A program made the position numbers and the translations under genes. Positions 6,618 to 29,506 of a DNA stretch of 64,000 bases are shown here, one piece after another. Where the stretch lies: contig NZ_JACGWX010000004.1 in assembly GCF_014137945.1 (NCBI RefSeq), positions 124,001 through 188,000 of the forward strand, written 5' to 3'. The stretch comes from Microcella alkalica (lineage in GTDB: Bacteria > Actinomycetota > Actinomycetes > Actinomycetales > Microbacteriaceae). How positions within the stretch are numbered: the first letter of the stretch is position 1; each line of letters begins with the position of its first letter. The notes beneath the pieces were generated by a model. It was not told the origin of the DNA, did not search any database, and saw nothing but the letters and a program-made list of their open reading frames with translations.

Positions 6618-8129
6618 CTAGGGCCGCGGGCGCCTCGGCAGCGACCGCGTGGCGGCTACGGCGTCGGACCAGCCCTCGTAGAGCCACTCGCGCTCGTCGG
6701 CGCTCATCGTCGGCTCGAACACCCGGTCGCACGACCACCGGTCGGCGATGCTCTCGACGCTCCAGAGGCCCGCACCGGCACCGGCGAGATGCGCGACGCC
6801 GAGGGCGGTGCGCTCGAGCCCGTGCGGGCGCTCGACGGGGATCCCCAGGATGTCCGCCTGGAACTGGCACAGGACGTCGTTGACGACGGCTCCGCCGTCG
6901 ACGCGCAGCGACGGGATGCTCACCCCGCCCCGTAGCAGAGCGTCGACGTTGTCCCGTGTCTGGTACGCCATCGCCTCGATCGCCGCGCGAACTACGTGCG
7001 CCGAGGTCGACTCGAGCGTGAGACCGACGATCGTCGCGCGCGCGTTCCGATCCCAGTGCGGATCGCACAGACCGGCGAATGCGGGCACCATGTACACCCC
7101 GCCGTTGTCGGGCACGCTCGCCGCGAGCGACTCGGTCTGGGTGGCGTAGGAGAAGAGTCCCAGCTGGTCGCGCAGCCACTGGATGGTCTGCCCGCTATGG
7201 AAGACGACGCCCTCGGCCTCGTAGGTGATGCGGTCGCCGATGCCCCATGCGACGCTGCTCGACATGCCGTCGAGGATCCGCGGGCGACCGCCGACGTTCA
7301 CGGTGAGGACCCCTGCAGTGCCGAAGGTGTTCTTCGCCATGCCCTCAGCGATGCACGCCTGCCCGAAGAGCCCCGCCTGCTGGTCGCCGAGGATGGCGTG
7401 GACGGGGACGGGCCGCGGCGAGGAGCCCGGCAGGACGCTCTCGGCGAGGTCGCCGAACCACGCGTTGGAGGGGCGGACCTCCGGCATCAGCGAGACGGGG
7501 ATGCCGAGCATCCCGCACAGCTCCTCGTCCCACGTGGCCGTCTCGATGTCGAGAAGCGCGGTGCGCGAGGCGGAGCTGGCATCGGTCGCGTGCGACGCGC
7601 CTCCCGTGAGGTTCCAGAGCAGCCATGTGTCGACGGTGCCGACGGCGAGGAGACCGCGCTCTGCGTCCTCGCGCACGCCCGGCACGTTCTCCAGGAGCCA
7701 GGCGATCTTGCCGGCGGAGAAGTAGGAGTCGTTGCGAACGCCCGTGCGACGGCGGAACTCCTCGTCGAGCCCAGCCTCCGACCAGCGCCGCACGATGCCG
7801 TCGGTCTGCTTCGACATCCACATGATCGCGTTGTGCGCGGGGCGACCGGTCGCGCGGTTCCAGATCACGCACGATTCGCGGTGCGTCGTGAGTCCGACCG
7901 CAGCGACGTCGGCCGCCGTCGCGCCCGCTTTCGTCATCGTCTGCCCGATCGAGAACGCGAGAGCGCCCCACAGCTCCGCAGGGTCGAGCTCGACCCACTC
8001 CGGTCGTGGGAAGAGGGGCGTGATCGGCACCGACGACTCGGCGACGGTCGCGCCGTCGAGGTCGACGAGAACGGCGCGGGCGCTGCTCGACCCTTCGTCG
8101 AGTGCCAGGACGTAGCGTGGGCTCATCAT
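6618..8129 (-). CDS. glpK: glycerol kinase
   Basis: This 503-residue FGGY kinase makes sn-glycerol 3-phosphate from glycerol and ATP. Residues known to bind glycerol in E. coli GlpK are all present at nearly the same positions: R84-E85 (THRES), W104, Y136 (SYFSAGK) and D249-Q250 (GDQQ). The N-terminal phosphate loop is altered to DEGSSSARA from the common DQGTTSSRA, and the segment after W104 (MSKQTDG) is also divergent. The start is one of two adjacent ATG codons, with GAGAGG upstream. It lies 34 nt downstream of glpD on the same strand, so the two form an operon. Confidence 0.9.
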   Translation of the reverse strand: MMSPRYVLALDEGSSSARAVLVDLDGATVAESSVPITPLFPRPEWVELDPAELWGALAFSIGQTMTKAGATAADVAAVGLTTHRESCVIWNRATGRPAHNAIMWMSKQTDGIVRRWSEAGLDEEFRRRTGVRNDSYFSAGKIAWLLENVPGVREDAERGLLAVGTVDTWLLWNLTGGASHATDASSASRTALLDIETATWDEELCGMLGIPVSLMPEVRPSNAWFGDLAESVLPGSSPRPVPVHAILGDQQAGLFGQACIAEGMAKNTFGTAGVLTVNVGGRPRILDGMSSSVAWGIGDRITYEAEGVVFHSGQTIQWLRDQLGLFSYATQTESLAASVPDNGGVYMVPAFAGLCDPHWDRNARATIVGLTLESTSAHVVRAAIEAMAYQTRDNVDALLRGGVSIPSLRVDGGAVVNDVLCQFQADILGIPVERPHGLERTALGVAHLAGAGAGLWSVESIADRWSCDRVFEPTMSADEREWLYEGWSDAVAATRSLPRRPRP

Positions 8130-23529: not shown

Positions 23530-24822
23530 TCAGTTGCCGGCTCGGCGGGGGGGCTCGTCGCCCACGGCCTCGCCGGGCGCGACCGCCGTGTCGGCGGGGT
23601 CGCGCTGGGCGCGGCTCGCGGCGAGGAACGGGATCGCGATCGCCGAGATGACGCCGCCCCAGAGGAGCGAGAACCCGTAGCCGCCGACGTCGGCGGCGCG
23701 CCCGAGAGCGGGCTGGATGGCGACGCCGCCCGCGCTGCCGAGAAGGGAGTGGAACGACAGCACCGTCGCGCGCTGGGCCGAGGGGATCATGTCGTTGAGG
23801 TACGCACGCTGCGCCGGCTGCCCGATCGACGAGGCGATGCCCCACGCCGCTAGGAGTGCGATCGCGACCCACAGCTCGCGCACGAAGAAGAACGCGACGA
23901 GCACCGCGGCGGAGGCAGCGGCCGAGGCGAGCAGGAGCGTCGTGCGGCGTCGGACCAGTCGGCGCACGACGGGAGCGAGGGCTCCGCCCGCGATCGAGGC
24001 GCCGGAGATCACGGCCGCCGCGAGCCCGGCGAGCGCGTACGCCCCGTCGTCACCTCCGAGCTCGAGCAGGTAGGGCTGCAGCGCGTAGAAGGCGTAGATG
24101 CCGACGCCCGTCGTGAACGGCGCGGCGATCATCAGCCAGCGTATGGGCGGCCGCCCGAGCCCGTGCCGCCCCGAGTCCCGCATGACGTCGCGCACGGCGG
24201 CGCCCGGCGTCGCGCCGCGTACGGGCGTGAAGCCGAGGTCGCGCATGAGGACGGCGGCGATCACGAGCATCGCCACGAGTAGGCCCGCGCGCACGAGGAA
24301 CGGCACGCCGAGGTCGGTCGCCTGCGCGATCACGCCGCCCGCGACCGAGCCCGTGAGCATCGCGACGCCCGCGACGACCTGCGCGCGGCCGAAGACGGAC
24401 TCGAGCGCGCCGCGGTAGCCGGTCGCCTGGAGGGCGTCGACGAGCCAGGCGTCGACGGCGCCGGAGAAGAAGGTGAAGCCCAGGCCCAGCAGCACGGAGA
24501 CGATCGCCCAGGCCCAGAACGGCGCCTCCTGCACCCACAAGCACCAGTACATGACGGTGGTGACAGCCAGGACGACGGTGCCGAGCAGGTACGACGCGCG
24601 CCGGCCCCACGTGTCGGCGACGACCCCGGTCGGGATCTCGAAGATCACCATCCCCGCAGTGAAGAACGCGTTCGCGGCGAAGGCCTCGAGGTTCGAGAGC
24701 CCCGCGTCGAGCAGGAAGAGCGTGTTGATGCCCCAGATGAACGACGCTGCCAGGGTGCTCCCGAGAGTGAGCGCGTAGTACGTCCCCTCGACGCGGCGCG
24801 GGGTCGGCGCTCGTCGGGTCAT
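23530..24822 (-). CDS. major facilitator superfamily transporter
   Basis: The 430-residue protein has about 12 hydrophobic segments and the MFS loop motif [15 protein letters not shown] after helix 2. A charged tail follows residue 410. Its start overlaps the aquaporin stop by 4 nt (ATGA), so both are on one transcript that begins at the ars operator. That linkage suggests a role in exporting an arsenic species or a toxic metabolite, but the sequence alone does not show the substrate. It resembles drug/metabolite MFS proteins with a tetracycline-type fold. Confidence 0.85.
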
Positions 24823-25559
24823 GCGCGCGCCGTCTCAGCGGGCGGTGCCGGGGTCGCCGTGCGCGGCCCGGCGGCGCGCGGGGCGAGCGTGACCGCGAAG
24901 CCGAGCGCGATCGCCGCGCCGACGACCTGGGCGACGATGAAGGGCCCGGCGCTCGCCGGGGCGATCCCGGCGAAGGTGTCGCTCGCGACGCGCCCGATCG
25001 TGATGGCGGGGTTCGCGAAGCTCGTGGAGCTCGTGAAGAAGTACGCGGCGCCGATGTACGCGGCCACCGCCGGGGCGATGAGCGCGTCCTTCTCCTGTCG
25101 GATGAGGAGCAGGATGACCGCAATCAGTCCCGCCGTCGCGATGACTTCGGCGAGGAGGGTCGCGGGCTCGGCGCGGTCGGTCGTGCTGAGCGCGACGGCC
25201 GGCAGCCCGAACATCAGGTTCGCGAGCGCGGCTCCGGCGAGGCAGCCCGCGACCTGCGCGGGGATGTACACCGCGGCGTCGACGCGCCCGATGCGGCGCA
25301 GGGCGAGCATGACGAGGGTGACCGCCGGGTTCAGGTGCGCACCGCTGAGCCCACTGAGCGCGGCGATGAGCACAAAGAGCCCGAAGACGGTCGCGATCGC
25401 GTTCATGAGCAGCTGCACGCCGACGTCGTCGGTGAGCCGCGTCGCCATGACGCCCGAGCCGATGACGACGGCCGCGAGACCCGCGGCACCGAGACCCTCG
25501 GCGAGAGCGCGTCGCCCGAGGGCGAGCGGAGCGGGCGCGGGGTCGGCGGCGGCGATCAT
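24819..25559 (-). CDS. aquaporin/glycerol-facilitator family channel (AqpS-like context)
   Basis: The 246-residue MIP protein has six helices and both half-helix motifs, HLNPAVT (residues 75-81) and FANPAIT (181-187). The residue following the second NPA is Ile, not the usual Arg of the selectivity filter, so the pore may be wider than that of water channels. It is divergent from the ArsR-ArsC gene and shares its operator. In rhizobia an ars-linked aquaporin (AqpS) lets arsenite made by ArsC leave the cell. The same role is inferred here, since no ArsB or Acr3 pump is in the locus. Confidence 0.87.
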   Translation of the reverse strand: MIAAADPAPAPLALGRRALAEGLGAAGLAAVVIGSGVMATRLTDDVGVQLLMNAIATVFGLFVLIAALSGLSGAHLNPAVTLVMLALRRIGRVDAAVYIPAQVAGCLAGAALANLMFGLPAVALSTTDRAEPATLLAEVIATAGLIAVILLLIRQEKDALIAPAVAAYIGAAYFFTSSTSFANPAITIGRVASDTFAGIAPASAGPFIVAQVVGAAIALGFAVTLAPRAAGPRTATPAPPAETARA

Positions 25560-25580: not shown

Positions 25581-25596
25581 ATAGACTGTCGTCTAT
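25581..25596. promoter_or_regulatory. ArsR-type operator ATAGAC-N4-GTCTAT between the divergent aquaporin and arsR-arsC genes
   Basis: This perfect 6-bp inverted repeat overlaps the ATG at 25595 and covers a TAGACT -10-like hexamer (25582-25587) placed 7 nt before that start. It matches the site at 26525-26542 (ATAGA-N6-TCTAT), so one regulator should bind both. Confidence 0.75.
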
Positions 25597-26488
25597 GAGT
25601 GGAGAGGCGATGGGGGATGGCGCGCTCCGCGCGCTCACCGACCCGACCCGCGCGGCGATCGTCCGTCTCCTCATCGCCGCCCCTGACGGGCGCGCCACCG
25701 TCGGGGCGCTCGCGGACGCGCTCGAGCTCACCCAGCCCACCGTCTCGCACCACATGGCGCGTCTGCGCGATCTCGGCCTCGTCACGGGCGAGCCGGAGGG
25801 GCGACGGGTCTGGTACTCCGTCGCGCCGGACGAGCTCGATCGCGTCTCAGACGTGCTCGACACCGCTCCGGCGGCGCGCATGACCGGCCATGTGCTGCAG
25901 CGCATCATCGGCGACCTTGCCGTGCGGTTCGATGGCACCTTCTCGCGAGGCACCGTCGAGCGATACGTGCTCGAGAGCTACGACCTCCTTGCGGACGGCG
26001 CGCGCATCACGCGCTTCCTGCCTTCGCTCACCGCACGGTTCGCGGCCGATCGCCTGGGGGCGCTCGCCGCCGTCGAGCGCCGCGACGAGACCGATCGGCC
26101 GCTCGAGGTGCTCTTCGTCTGCGTCCAGAATGCGGGGCGCTCTCAGCTCGCCGCAGCCATCCTGCGCCAGCTCGGCGGCGATCGGGTGAGCGTGCGCACG
26201 GCCGGCTCGGCCCCCGCCGACGCGGTGCGCGCCTCCGTGATCGCCGCGCTCGACGAGATCGGCGTGCCGCTCGGCGGTGAGTTCCCCAAGCCGCTCACTG
26301 ACGAGGCCGTGCGGGCCGCCGACGTCGTCGTCACGATGGGGTGCGGCGACGCGTGCCCGGTCTACCCGGGGCGGCGCTATCTCGACTGGGCGGTCGAGGA
26401 CCCGGTGGGGAAGCCGCTGGAGGACGTGCGTCGCATCCGCGACGACATCGACGCTCGTGTGCGGGGGTTGCTCGGCTCCATCGCGTGA
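25595..26488 (+). CDS. ArsR-ArsC fusion: winged-helix repressor joined to arsenate reductase
   Basis: The 297-residue protein has an ArsR winged helix (residues 8-88, recognition region LTQPTVSHHMARLRDLGLV), a three-helix segment (about 95-155) shared with the 26962 gene, and a low-molecular-weight-phosphatase-type ArsC domain from 170 on. The P-loop is CVQNAGRS (C176, R182), followed later by MGCGDACPVYPG. No cysteine occurs before C176, so the usual arsenite-sensing Cys pair of the ArsR part is absent, and sensing may use the reductase cysteines. The transcript is probably leaderless. ArsRC fusions are known in other actinobacteria. Confidence 0.9.
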   Translation: MSGEAMGDGALRALTDPTRAAIVRLLIAAPDGRATVGALADALELTQPTVSHHMARLRDLGLVTGEPEGRRVWYSVAPDELDRVSDVLDTAPAARMTGHVLQRIIGDLAVRFDGTFSRGTVERYVLESYDLLADGARITRFLPSLTARFAADRLGALAAVERRDETDRPLEVLFVCVQNAGRSQLAAAILRQLGGDRVSVRTAGSAPADAVRASVIAALDEIGVPLGGEFPKPLTDEAVRAADVVVTMGCGDACPVYPGRRYLDWAVEDPVGKPLEDVRRIRDDIDARVRGLLGSIA

Positions 26489-26524
26489 ACAGCCGATGAA
26501 CTCGGCGTCAGCGGACGTCAATCG

Positions 26525-26542
26525 CATAGATCACGGTCTATG
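26525..26542. promoter_or_regulatory. ArsR-type operator CATAGA-N6-TCTATG over the arsC promoter
   Basis: The perfect 6-bp inverted repeat overlaps the hexamer TATGAT (26539-26544), which ends 7 nt before ATG 26552. Binding would cover the -10 element. The half-sites are the same as in the 25581-25596 operator. Confidence 0.78.
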
Positions 26543-26551
26543 ATTACGAGC

Positions 26552-26962
26552 ATGAGCGATCAGCGCATCCCCACCGTCCTCTTCGTCTGCGTGCACAACG
26601 CCGGCCGCTCGCAGATGGCCGCCGGCTACCTGCAGCACCTCGCGGGCGACCGCGTGCAGGTGCTCTCCGCGGGATCGGCGCCGAAGGAGCAGATCAACCC
26701 CGTCGCGATCGACGCCATGGCGGAGGAGGGCATCGACATCGCGCACAACGTGCCGAAGGTGCTCACGACCGAGGCGGTGCAGGAGAGCGACGTCGTCATC
26801 ACGATGGGCTGCGGCGACGTGTGCCCCGTCTTCCCCGGCAAGCGCTACGAGGACTGGGAGCTCGACGACCCGGCCGGGCAGGGGATCGACTCGGTGCGCC
26901 CCATCCGCGATGAGATCAGGCGCCGCATCGAGGTGCTTGTCGGCGAGATCCTCCCCGCCTGA
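26552..26962 (+). CDS. arsC: arsenate reductase, low-molecular-weight phosphatase type
   Basis: The 136-residue single-domain enzyme has the P-loop CVHNAGRS (C13, R19) and the block MGCGDVCPVFPGKRYEDWELDDPAGQ. It reduces arsenate to arsenite, in actinobacteria with mycothiol or thioredoxin. ATG 26552 is preferred over ATG 26540 because the latter lies inside the operator and the -10 hexamer. It is the second of three ArsC domains in the locus, and its stop overlaps the next start. Confidence 0.92.
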   Translation: MSDQRIPTVLFVCVHNAGRSQMAAGYLQHLAGDRVQVLSAGSAPKEQINPVAIDAMAEEGIDIAHNVPKVLTTEAVQESDVVITMGCGDVCPVFPGKRYEDWELDDPAGQGIDSVRPIRDEIRRRIEVLVGEILPA

Positions 26963-27606
26963 TGAGCGAGCCCACCGGGGCGGTGCCCGACGTCGTCGGC
27001 CGCATCGGCGAGCGGCTCAGTGAACGCTACCGCGGCATCTTCAATGCCCAGACCGTGCAGGCGGTCGTCGACGGCAGCTACCTCCTGCTCGCGCGTGACG
27101 CGAAGGTGACGCAGTTCCTGCCCTCGCTCACGGCGCACTTCGCCGGTGACCGGCTCGCGGCGCTCGCCCGCGCCGACGGACTCGTCCCCTCTGAGACGCC
27201 CTCCGTCCTCTTCGTGTGCATCGAGAACTCCGGCCGCTCGCAGCTCGCGGCGGCCGCCATGCGCGCGATGGCGGGCGATGGCGTCATCGTCATGAGCGCG
27301 GGCTCGCAGCCCGCTGTCCGGATCGCTCCGGCCGTCGCCGAGGTGCTCGACGAGGTCGGCATCCCCGTCGTCGACGAGTACCCCAAGCCCCTCACGGAGG
27401 AGCTCGTCCGCGGCGCCGAGTACGTCATCACGATGGGCTGCGGGGATGCCTGCCCCGTCCTCCCGGGGCGCCGCTACGAGGACTGGCCGATCGCCGACCC
27501 GTCCGGCGCGGGCCGCGCGGGAATGCGCGTCACGCGCGACGCGATCATCGCGCACGTCGAGGGCCTGCTGGCGGAGATCCGCGCGGATCGCGCGGGGCGA
27601 GGCTGA
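26962..27606 (+). CDS. arsenate reductase with N-terminal three-helix domain
   Basis: The 214-residue protein begins with a helical domain (residues 10-75, with RYRGIFNAQTV and TQFLPSLTAHFAGDRL) that is clearly homologous to residues 95-155 of the ArsR-ArsC fusion. An ArsC domain with P-loop CIENSGRS (C86, R92) and MGCGDACPVLPGRRYEDW follows. This layout matches mycothiol-dependent ArsC proteins of corynebacteria. It starts on the last base of the arsC stop. A Pro/Arg-rich gene-free spacer follows before the converging glnR. Confidence 0.9.
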   Translation: MSEPTGAVPDVVGRIGERLSERYRGIFNAQTVQAVVDGSYLLLARDAKVTQFLPSLTAHFAGDRLAALARADGLVPSETPSVLFVCIENSGRSQLAAAAMRAMAGDGVIVMSAGSQPAVRIAPAVAEVLDEVGIPVVDEYPKPLTEELVRGAEYVITMGCGDACPVLPGRRYEDWPIADPSGAGRAGMRVTRDAIIAHVEGLLAEIRADRAGRG

Positions 27607-28909: not shown

Positions 28910-29506
28910 GTGTTCAACCTCGACACGAGCCTGCCAGCCGAGCTCGCTCCGCTCTCGTGGCTCATCGGGGTCTGGGAGGGCACGGGCGTCGTCCACTACG
29001 ACGACGCCGGCACCACTCGCGAGCACGAGTTCGGCCAGCGCGTGAGCTTCAGCCACGACGGCCTGCCCTACCTCAACTACTCGTCCACGACGTGGATCCT
29101 CGACGAGTCGCTCACCCCCCTCAACGCCGAGGCCGGCTACTGGCGCTTGCACCGACCCTCGCAGCCGGGCGACCCCGGCCCCGGAATGCTGCCCGGCGTC
29201 GGAGACCGCCCCTACCCGAGCGCCGAGGCCGTCGAGACCCTGCGCACGTCGCGCGGCGACTTCGAGATCGAGGTCGCGCTCATCCACCCCGGCGGCGTGA
29301 GCGAGCTCTACCTCGGCACCGTCGACGGGCCGCGCATCGACCTGCAGACCGACGCCGTCATGCGCTCGGCGAGCGCGAAGGAGTACGCCGCCGCGACGCG
29401 CCTCTACGGCCTCGTCGACAACCGGCTGCTCTGGGCGTGGGACATCGCCGCGCTCGGCAACGACCTCCGCACCCACGCCTCGGGGACGCTGACCCGTGTC
29501 GACTGA
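28910..29506 (+). CDS. nitrobindin-like haem-binding beta-barrel protein (FABP-like family)
   Basis: The 198-residue protein has the family signature GVWEGTG near residue 20, a YLNYSSTTWIL strand and a C-terminal LLWAWDIAALG segment, consistent with the ten-strand nitrobindin barrel (DUF1794). Members bind ferric haem and can isomerise peroxynitrite. GTG 28910 is used, and the end overlaps the ygfZ start by 11 nt, so the two are co-translated. The pairing with a YgfZ protein, which supports iron-sulfur repair, hints at oxidative or nitrosative stress defence. Confidence 0.82.
   Translation: MFNLDTSLPAELAPLSWLIGVWEGTGVVHYDDAGTTREHEFGQRVSFSHDGLPYLNYSSTTWILDESLTPLNAEAGYWRLHRPSQPGDPGPGMLPGVGDRPYPSAEAVETLRTSRGDFEIEVALIHPGGVSELYLGTVDGPRIDLQTDAVMRSASAKEYAAATRLYGLVDNRLLWAWDIAALGNDLRTHASGTLTRVD

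Follow-up and report, generated by a model that had tools for sequence, protein, structure and literature searches.

A cysteine-less class of ArsR-ArsC fusions with its own predicted operator, and a possible route of arsenic sensing through the fused reductase

Results

The arsenic locus

We analysed a stretch of 64,000 nucleotides (the window) from a genome of 2.74 Mb, which holds an arsenic locus built around a fusion of an ArsR-type repressor and an arsenate reductase. The ArsR part of the fusion has no cysteine, and a palindromic operator, ATAGA-N6-TCTAT, accompanies this class of fusions. The architecture, the absence of cysteines and the operator layout are read directly from the sequence; DNA binding, repression and, above all, sensing at the reductase site are what we infer from them. 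On balance, we lean towards a fusion that would serve as the local repressor of the arsenic locus and would receive its arsenic input via the fused reductase site. The features of the locus are as follows (positions in the window):

23530..24822, minus strand: MFS transporter gene (PF07690), with a 4-base overlap with the aquaporin gene
24819..25559, minus strand: aquaporin (MIP) gene, divergent from the fusion (PF00230, 75.9 bits; two NPA motifs)
25581..25596, no strand: predicted operator 1, ATAGACTGTCGTCTAT; TAGACT at 25582-25587 reads as a -10 element, and the final AT plus the next G give the fusion start codon
25595..26488, plus strand: fusion of ArsR, three-helix domain and ArsC, class II (297 aa; C176, C250, C254)
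26526..26541, no strand: predicted operator 2, ATAGATCACGGTCTAT; TATGAT at 26539-26544 would be the -10 element for the arsC unit
26540..26962, plus strand: stand-alone arsC (Cys 17/91/95; alternative start ATG 26552)
26962..27606, plus strand: three-helix + ArsC gene (Cys 86/160/164), with one base common to the arsC stop

The earlier note on this DNA had counted three ArsC domains and an aquaporin at the locus, and we arrive at the same count: the ArsC domains are those of the fusion, of 26540-26962 and of 26962-27606, and the aquaporin gene lies just beyond the segment which that note described. The stand-alone arsC possibly starts at its alternative ATG, on a leaderless transcript. The MFS and aquaporin genes are probably transcribed together. 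The best PDB sequence match of the aquaporin is Aquaporin NIP2-1 (E 4.7e-8), with Aquaporin-4 a close second, and the protein is a candidate arsenite channel that may have an AqpS-like role. Downstream of the arsenic locus, a protein with a THAP4-like heme-binding domain is encoded (28910-29506; PF08768, 148 bits).

Domains and cysteines of the fusion protein

The fusion consists of an ArsR-type helix-turn-helix (HTH) domain (residues 14-65; PF12840, PF01022), a three-helix segment of the Phosphatase-like_N type (residues 101-158; PF21234) and an LMWPc/ArsC domain (residues 172-293; PF01451). The winged-helix ArsR/SmtB domain scores 51.9 bits for PF12840, 46 bits for PF01022 and 79.5 bits for NF033788 (cut-off 55). 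For the three-helix segment there is a match to an NCBIfam model that bears the name of a dimerization domain. There are three cysteines in all, C176, C250 and C254, and these form the reductase triad. Two claims made earlier thus hold: no cysteine precedes C176, and the ArsR part would be unable to bind arsenite via a cysteine pair, since residues 1-175 contain none. Where a classical ArsR has CVC the window fusion has TVG, and the classic CxC pair before the recognition helix is missing. The CX5R nucleophile loop, the redox cysteine pair and the DP motif of thioredoxin-type ArsC are all present, and arsenate reduction with thioredoxin is the predicted activity of the fused ArsC domain.

A structure model of the fusion (mean pLDDT 91.8, pTM 0.69) is confident inside the domains and says little on how they are coupled. 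Residues 90-292 of the model match Cg_ArsC1' (PDB 3t38) with a Z of 27.7 and an rmsd of 2.3 over 195 aligned residues, at 48% identity.

Conservation among related fusions

A scan of genome contigs gave at least 557 confirmed relatives, of which the best 80 loci, holding 84 full-length fusions, were kept (the 80 best loci of at least 557, below simply the 80 best loci). Among the matches listed, the closest named relatives of the window fusion are from Microcella (Microbacteriaceae), with 92% identity for L026. For the 80 best loci, 83 fusions were aligned, namely the window protein and 82 relatives; L084 and one minus-strand paralogue of L104 were omitted. Both alignments (A1 and A2) begin at 25610, five residues short of the preferred start, and there is no cysteine among these five.

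No cysteine precedes the triad in 80 of the 83 aligned fusions from the 80 best loci and the other three have one, so the Cys-less N-terminal part is more than chance. The L084 sequence, outside the alignment, likewise has no cysteine before the catalytic one. The triad (C171/C245/C249 in M6 numbering, equal to C176/C250/C254), CX5R and the DP motif are invariant in all 83 aligned fusions, yet other ArsCs are encoded near fusions of this set. The same constancy would be expected of an ordinary reductase fused by chance. Among 28 further genes of the window type (class II), 26 encode no cysteine in the N-terminal part; L109 and L166 have one each, in L109 where the pair would begin, in L166 further along. 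In four loci (L035, L051, L092 and L104) a Cys-less stand-alone ArsR adjoins a second fusion (about 50% identical).

Within residues 1-160 (M6 numbering), the ligand-capable residues conserved in at least 80% of the aligned fusions from the 80 best loci are D11, H47, H48, D102 and one glutamate position. The last of these is E in 73 of the 83 fusions and G114 in the window protein, and D11, H47 and H48 fall in the common ArsR signatures DPTR and QPTVSHH. No conserved substitute set of His, Asp or Glu ligands is visible in the ArsR part of the 83 sequences. This argues against a reading in which the ArsR part binds arsenic via non-cysteine residues, or does so together with cysteines from the ArsC domain of the opposite subunit. 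The model, which says little on how the domains are placed in the dimer (pTM 0.69), leaves it some room; we regard it as the least probable of the readings weighed here.

A full-length fusion was found in 20 of the 26 genomes of a genus sample; five had ArsC-type matches alone and one had no match at the threshold. Samples of the phylum (396 genomes) and the order (297 genomes) were searched with a limited number of candidates scored per genome, and the matches at E 1e-47 or better in these two samples all came from the same family. Within the order sample, 11 genomes of this family matched at E 1e-47 or better, three matched more weakly and nine listed genomes had no match. Class II is thus common within the family, though not found in every genome. 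Species recur across the relative-scan, phylum, genus and order sets, and the counts are not independent.

The predicted operator

The pattern ATAGA-N6-TCTAT, with spacers of 4 to 8 allowed, occurs at two places in the 2.74-Mb genome, both at the arsenic locus. The reversed pattern, used as a control, occurs at one place in the genome, and 100 shuffled versions of the window gave no ATAGA-N6-TCTAT match. Around the related fusions, positions -160 to +30 were searched, and a strict operator was found at 66 of the 84 fusions of the 80 best loci. Seven of the remaining 18 have a site with one mismatch (L063, L064, L080, L081, L085, L097 and L098), the L049 site has two mismatches, paralogous fusions in L092 and L104 have a site some 400 bases upstream, and eight of the 84 have no good site in this set. 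The strict operator is also found at all 28 further class II genes. L092 and L104 hold, in addition, paired variant sites that start with ATAGAAG.

In total, 142 strict sites were found in 79 of the 80 best loci, of which 67 are at the fusion, 71 at arsC, one at an aquaporin gene alone and three elsewhere; 138 of the 142 are thus at fusion or arsC promoters. The two kinds of site differ in their layout. The fusion-type site reads ATAGACT-N3-(G/A)TCTAT, with TAnnnT on the 5' half in 65 of 66 strict sites from the 80 best loci, and its 3' end supplies an ATG in the open frame, again in 65 of 66. The arsC sites have TATnnT at site positions 14-19, on the 3' half, in all 69 examined from these loci. 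Judged by position and consensus, we infer that one and the same palindrome would overlie the -10 element in two ways.

Because 65 of the 66 related sites supply an ATG that opens the reading frame of the fusion, a start at 25595 on a leaderless transcript is preferred for the window fusion. The ATG at 25610, preceded by GGAG, was rejected, as a Shine-Dalgarno-like stretch with a start is found at just 29 of 67 sites in the 80 best loci.

An arsC gene lies behind an ATAGA-N6-TCTAT operator in 71 of the 80 best loci. The aquaporin gene is present in 53 of the 80 best loci, in 21 divergent from the fusion, in 11 downstream on the fusion strand, in 17 beside a CxC ArsR and in 4 elsewhere, and it was not seen in 27. 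In all 26 of the 80 best loci with an aquaporin but without a CxC ArsR, the aquaporin gene is either divergent from the fusion or downstream on the same strand. Within the same set, a relative of the MFS gene adjoins the aquaporin gene only in L026, L027 and L028 (Microcella); a relative with 63% identity is present in the Cryobacterium locus L058, placed elsewhere in the locus.

The genes under the operator also bear on what the triad might report. It could be a thiol-redox switch, set off by disulfide stress or when reducing power from thioredoxin/mycothiol is lost, arsenate being one of several inducers. A triad of the thioredoxin-type ArsC kind (best structure match Cg_ArsC1') and thioredoxin reductase matches near several fusions fit such a role, but the labelled genes behind the operator in the 80 best loci are arsenic genes, and we consider the switch improbable.

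Other ArsR proteins and their operator

The 80 best loci contain 49 stand-alone ArsR matches, 38 of them with a CxC pair. In these loci, a different palindrome, ATCGA-N6-TCGAT, lies upstream of 28 of the 38 CxC ArsRs, and ATAGA-N6-TCTAT lies upstream of none of the 38 even with one mismatch allowed. In the 200 bases that follow ATCGA-N6-TCGAT, the search of the 80 best loci gave no ArsC; two fusions (L039 and L060) are found there. The half-sites of the two operators are one base apart, so cross-binding is possible, and from these patterns the fusion and the CxC ArsRs are likely to recognise separate operators.

The window genome has eight PF01022 matches besides the fusion, seven above the cut-off and one below, and a CxC pair at the classic place is present in none of the seven. 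Two of the open frames contain closely spaced cysteines elsewhere: in L007 a CVCKC precedes the HTH match by 25-29 residues, perhaps in a stretch ahead of the real start codon, and in L008 a CWC is located close to the C-terminal end. Such proteins, together with the single-base difference per half-site from the CxC ArsR operator of relatives, are what would speak for another ArsR-family protein of the genome binding ATAGA-N6-TCTAT and giving arsenic control. We hold this to be very unlikely: all seven proteins examined lack a cysteine pair in the classic position, the genome has no further copy of the palindrome, and no CxC ArsR among the 38 of the 80 best loci has an ATAGA-N6-TCTAT site, with up to one mismatch. 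Recognition by another ArsR was the outcome that the earlier note had named as speaking against its own reading; it is disfavoured because the operator goes with the fusion class, and the CxC ArsRs of the relatives have another, albeit with half-sites one base apart.

Alternatively, the fusion may be a repressor or autoregulator blind to arsenic, in which the ArsR part does no more than limit reductase expression, the fused ArsC provides a third copy of the enzyme and the fusion fixes dimerisation and dosage. The ArsR part without an arsenic site, the co-located further ArsC genes and the match of the three-helix segment to a dimerization-domain model all agree with it. Nevertheless, operator and fusion are retained together in most relatives (the 80 best loci and the 28 further genes), and with no classic CxC ArsR seen in the genome the operon would be left without evident arsenic input. 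We therefore judge an arsenic-blind repressor unlikely, though it carries some weight.

Two other gene arrangements were observed in passing. At L019 5764-8582, in the window genome, a Cys-less ArsR/SmtB gene has as neighbours an SBF-superfamily gene and one for a flavin oxidoreductase whose tail is rich in cysteine, possibly another metalloid or thiol-stress unit. In L063 (3831-5159) and L058 (4089-5402), a flavin oxidoreductase with a Cys-rich end is encoded between the CxC arsR operator and the fusion; by eye, both look like ArsO.

Two classes of ArsR-ArsC fusions

The matches in the order sample form two score groups, and the strong ones that were examined are Cys-less or have a single cysteine. 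The 18 weaker full-length matches that were examined all belong to another class, class I, which keeps the CVC pair. It is present in all 20 class I proteins examined in full (2 from plasmids, 18 from the order sample), the cysteines standing twelve and ten residues before the recognition helix, and several of these proteins are about 340 aa long. Of the 18 from the order sample, 17 are from other Micrococcales families and one (L110) is from Microbacteriaceae. A search of 380 plasmid records gave three matches with at least 80% query coverage (L157, L158 and L159). The L157 and L158 fusions keep CVC, as does the interrupted L159 frame in the part before the stop. Genes for trxB-trxA and arsC are near the L157 and L159 fusions, and acr3 is near those of L157 and L158. 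The frame-broken class I fusion of L159 (3668-4594), on a Microbacterium plasmid, has no listed gene in the PLSDB table. On the Cellulosimicrobium plasmid L157, a strict ATAGA-N6-TCTAT is present at 7127-7142, beside a winged-helix regulator and near pstB, away from the arsenic operon.

The layout of these plasmid loci resembles that of Microbacterium sp. A33, in which an ArsR-ArsC fusion reportedly stands beside acr3 and ArsRC2 is said to be a negative regulator. Fusions of such a layout (L157, with trxB-trxA, and L158) keep CVC, whereas the window type is without it; compared with L157 and L158, the window type also has its own operator. Class I genes lie inside operons, so that the absence of an operator directly upstream of them is weak evidence.

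Trees were built for the ArsR part (70 rows, 84 columns, midpoint root) and for the helix + ArsC part (50 rows); the class counts omit L156, L171 and L179, and the trees omit L158. The two classes are apart in both. The 16 class I rows form one side of a branch with a support of 100/99 in the ArsR-part tree and 100/100 in the helix + ArsC tree, with the window protein outside. The class I ArsR part lies with stand-alone CxC ArsRs (35 rows, 100/100), and the class I reductase part is separated from class II (99/99). The separation in both domain trees is most simply explained if the ArsR-ArsC fusion arose twice, as it probably did. The midpoint-rooted ArsR-part tree leaves the order of the pair-present and pair-absent states undirected. 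Six divergent stand-alone ArsRs beside the window branch in this tree were taken for an artefact.

The three-helix + ArsC gene at 26962-27606 groups with the class II reductase half in the helix + ArsC tree (27 rows, 99/99), and may therefore be a copy of a class II fusion that lost the HTH. The sampled Microbacterium three-helix ArsCs group nearer class I in the same tree.

Arsenite pumps and exporters

No ArsB or Acr3 gene is present in the arsenic locus. In the whole window genome there is no PF02040 (ArsB) match, and the best match to TIGR00832 (Acr3) has 36 bits, versus a cut-off of 282.8. Three SBF-superfamily genes are present, all on contigs other than that of the window. As Acr3 genes they were rejected: one is bass-like (TIGR00841, 209 bits, cut-off 326), one has no NCBIfam match and one has the 36 bits for TIGR00832. 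Among the 80 best loci, one has an Acr3 match (L084; one query, E 1e-8). The earlier statement that the locus lacks an ArsB or Acr3 pump stands for these canonical families. The MFS protein of the aquaporin unit (23530-24822) is a possible further exporter, and the distant SBF proteins elsewhere in the genome might also carry arsenite.

Discussion

Relation to known systems

ArsR-ArsC fusions have been published before. A review (PMC6205960), in the text available, names them in L. ferriphilum, Microbacterium and Sinorhizobium, and a network of 357 actinobacterial ArsCs (PMC6514093, likewise in part) has two ArsR-ArsC fusion clusters, C4 and C7; a figure legend of that paper (figure 4) refers to Microbacterium sp. 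A33 and an ArsR-ArsC2 fusion. As far as the accessible parts of these sources tell, the actinobacterial fusions (C4/C7; A33 ArsRC2) share with the window protein an ArsR domain fused to a thioredoxin-type ArsC. TtSmtB of Thermus thermophilus (PMC5658604, partial text) is also an ArsR/SmtB repressor of arsC for which arsenate was proposed as the preferred effector, but it is a separate, unfused protein with three cysteines (Cys10, 62 and 64). Cg_ArsC1' of Corynebacterium glutamicum (PDB 3t38) has the same three-helix N-domain and ArsC; its chain of 213 residues corresponds to the C-terminal two thirds of the fusion, the DNA-binding part being missing.

An aquaporin in an arsenic locus is likewise known from AqpS-type ars operons (Sinorhizobium; the Salinispora AqpS-ArsC fusion), in which, according to the parts of PMC6205960 at hand, it was proposed to replace ArsB. 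From the same parts, the window differs in that its regulator is an ArsR-ArsC fusion and in that an MFS gene follows the aquaporin gene. The literature on fusions and arsenate sensing (including PMC6205960 and PMC6514093), in the partial and mostly open-access text available, has no mention of a Cys-less class, its operator or sensing by the reductase. The Cys-less class with its own operator looks new.

Proposed mechanism

We propose that a dimer of the fusion would act as a dedicated repressor of the arsenic locus, bound to the ATAGA-N6-TCTAT palindromes. When bound, these would cover the -10 elements of the fusion and arsC promoters and adjoin the divergent aquaporin-MFS promoter, and RNA polymerase would be blocked. 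The ArsR part itself would have no arsenic site; the arsenic signal would enter via the fused arsenate reductase, be it as arsenate binding, as turnover, or as the arsenic or disulfide state of C176-C250-C254. The change at the reductase site would alter the dimer, the DNA would be released, and the freed genes would provide more reductase and a channel which, with the MFS protein, would let arsenite out. If arsenic acts on the reductase triad, and through it on the dimer and on DNA release, the enzyme that meets arsenate would also report it.

ArsC enzymes of the Cg_ArsC1' kind move their redox segment during catalysis, as does S. aureus pI258 ArsC, and this motion makes coupling to the DNA-binding dimer plausible by analogy. 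With the customary arsenic-binding cysteines missing from the repressor, the fused enzyme part would be the likeliest place for its arsenic sensor. The earlier interpretation is supported in part, in that the ArsR part shows neither cysteine pair nor substitute ligands and the operator is tied to the fusion class. The repressor may, as was proposed there, sense turnover or arsenite at the reductase site, or else arsenate, and the absence of a pump is restricted to the canonical families.

Significance

More tentatively, and with rather less assurance than for the single locus, the class may represent a family-wide trigger enzyme, in which an ArsR without an arsenic site would sense arsenate via the cycle of its fused reductase and act at its own operator, distinct from the one that the classical arsenite-sensing ArsR has in those genomes, giving an arsenate circuit (the reductases) beside an arsenite circuit (the channel). 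The prevailing picture of bacterial arsenic repressors is that they sense arsenite through thiols. The fusions offer an example of two apparently separate ArsR-ArsC fusions of which one alone keeps the cysteine sensor, and an arsenate-specific biosensor part would be a possible use. If the proposal is true, a class of repressors met within one bacterial family, lacking such thiols, fused to the enzyme that makes arsenite and equipped with its own operator, would detect arsenate or the turnover of that enzyme.
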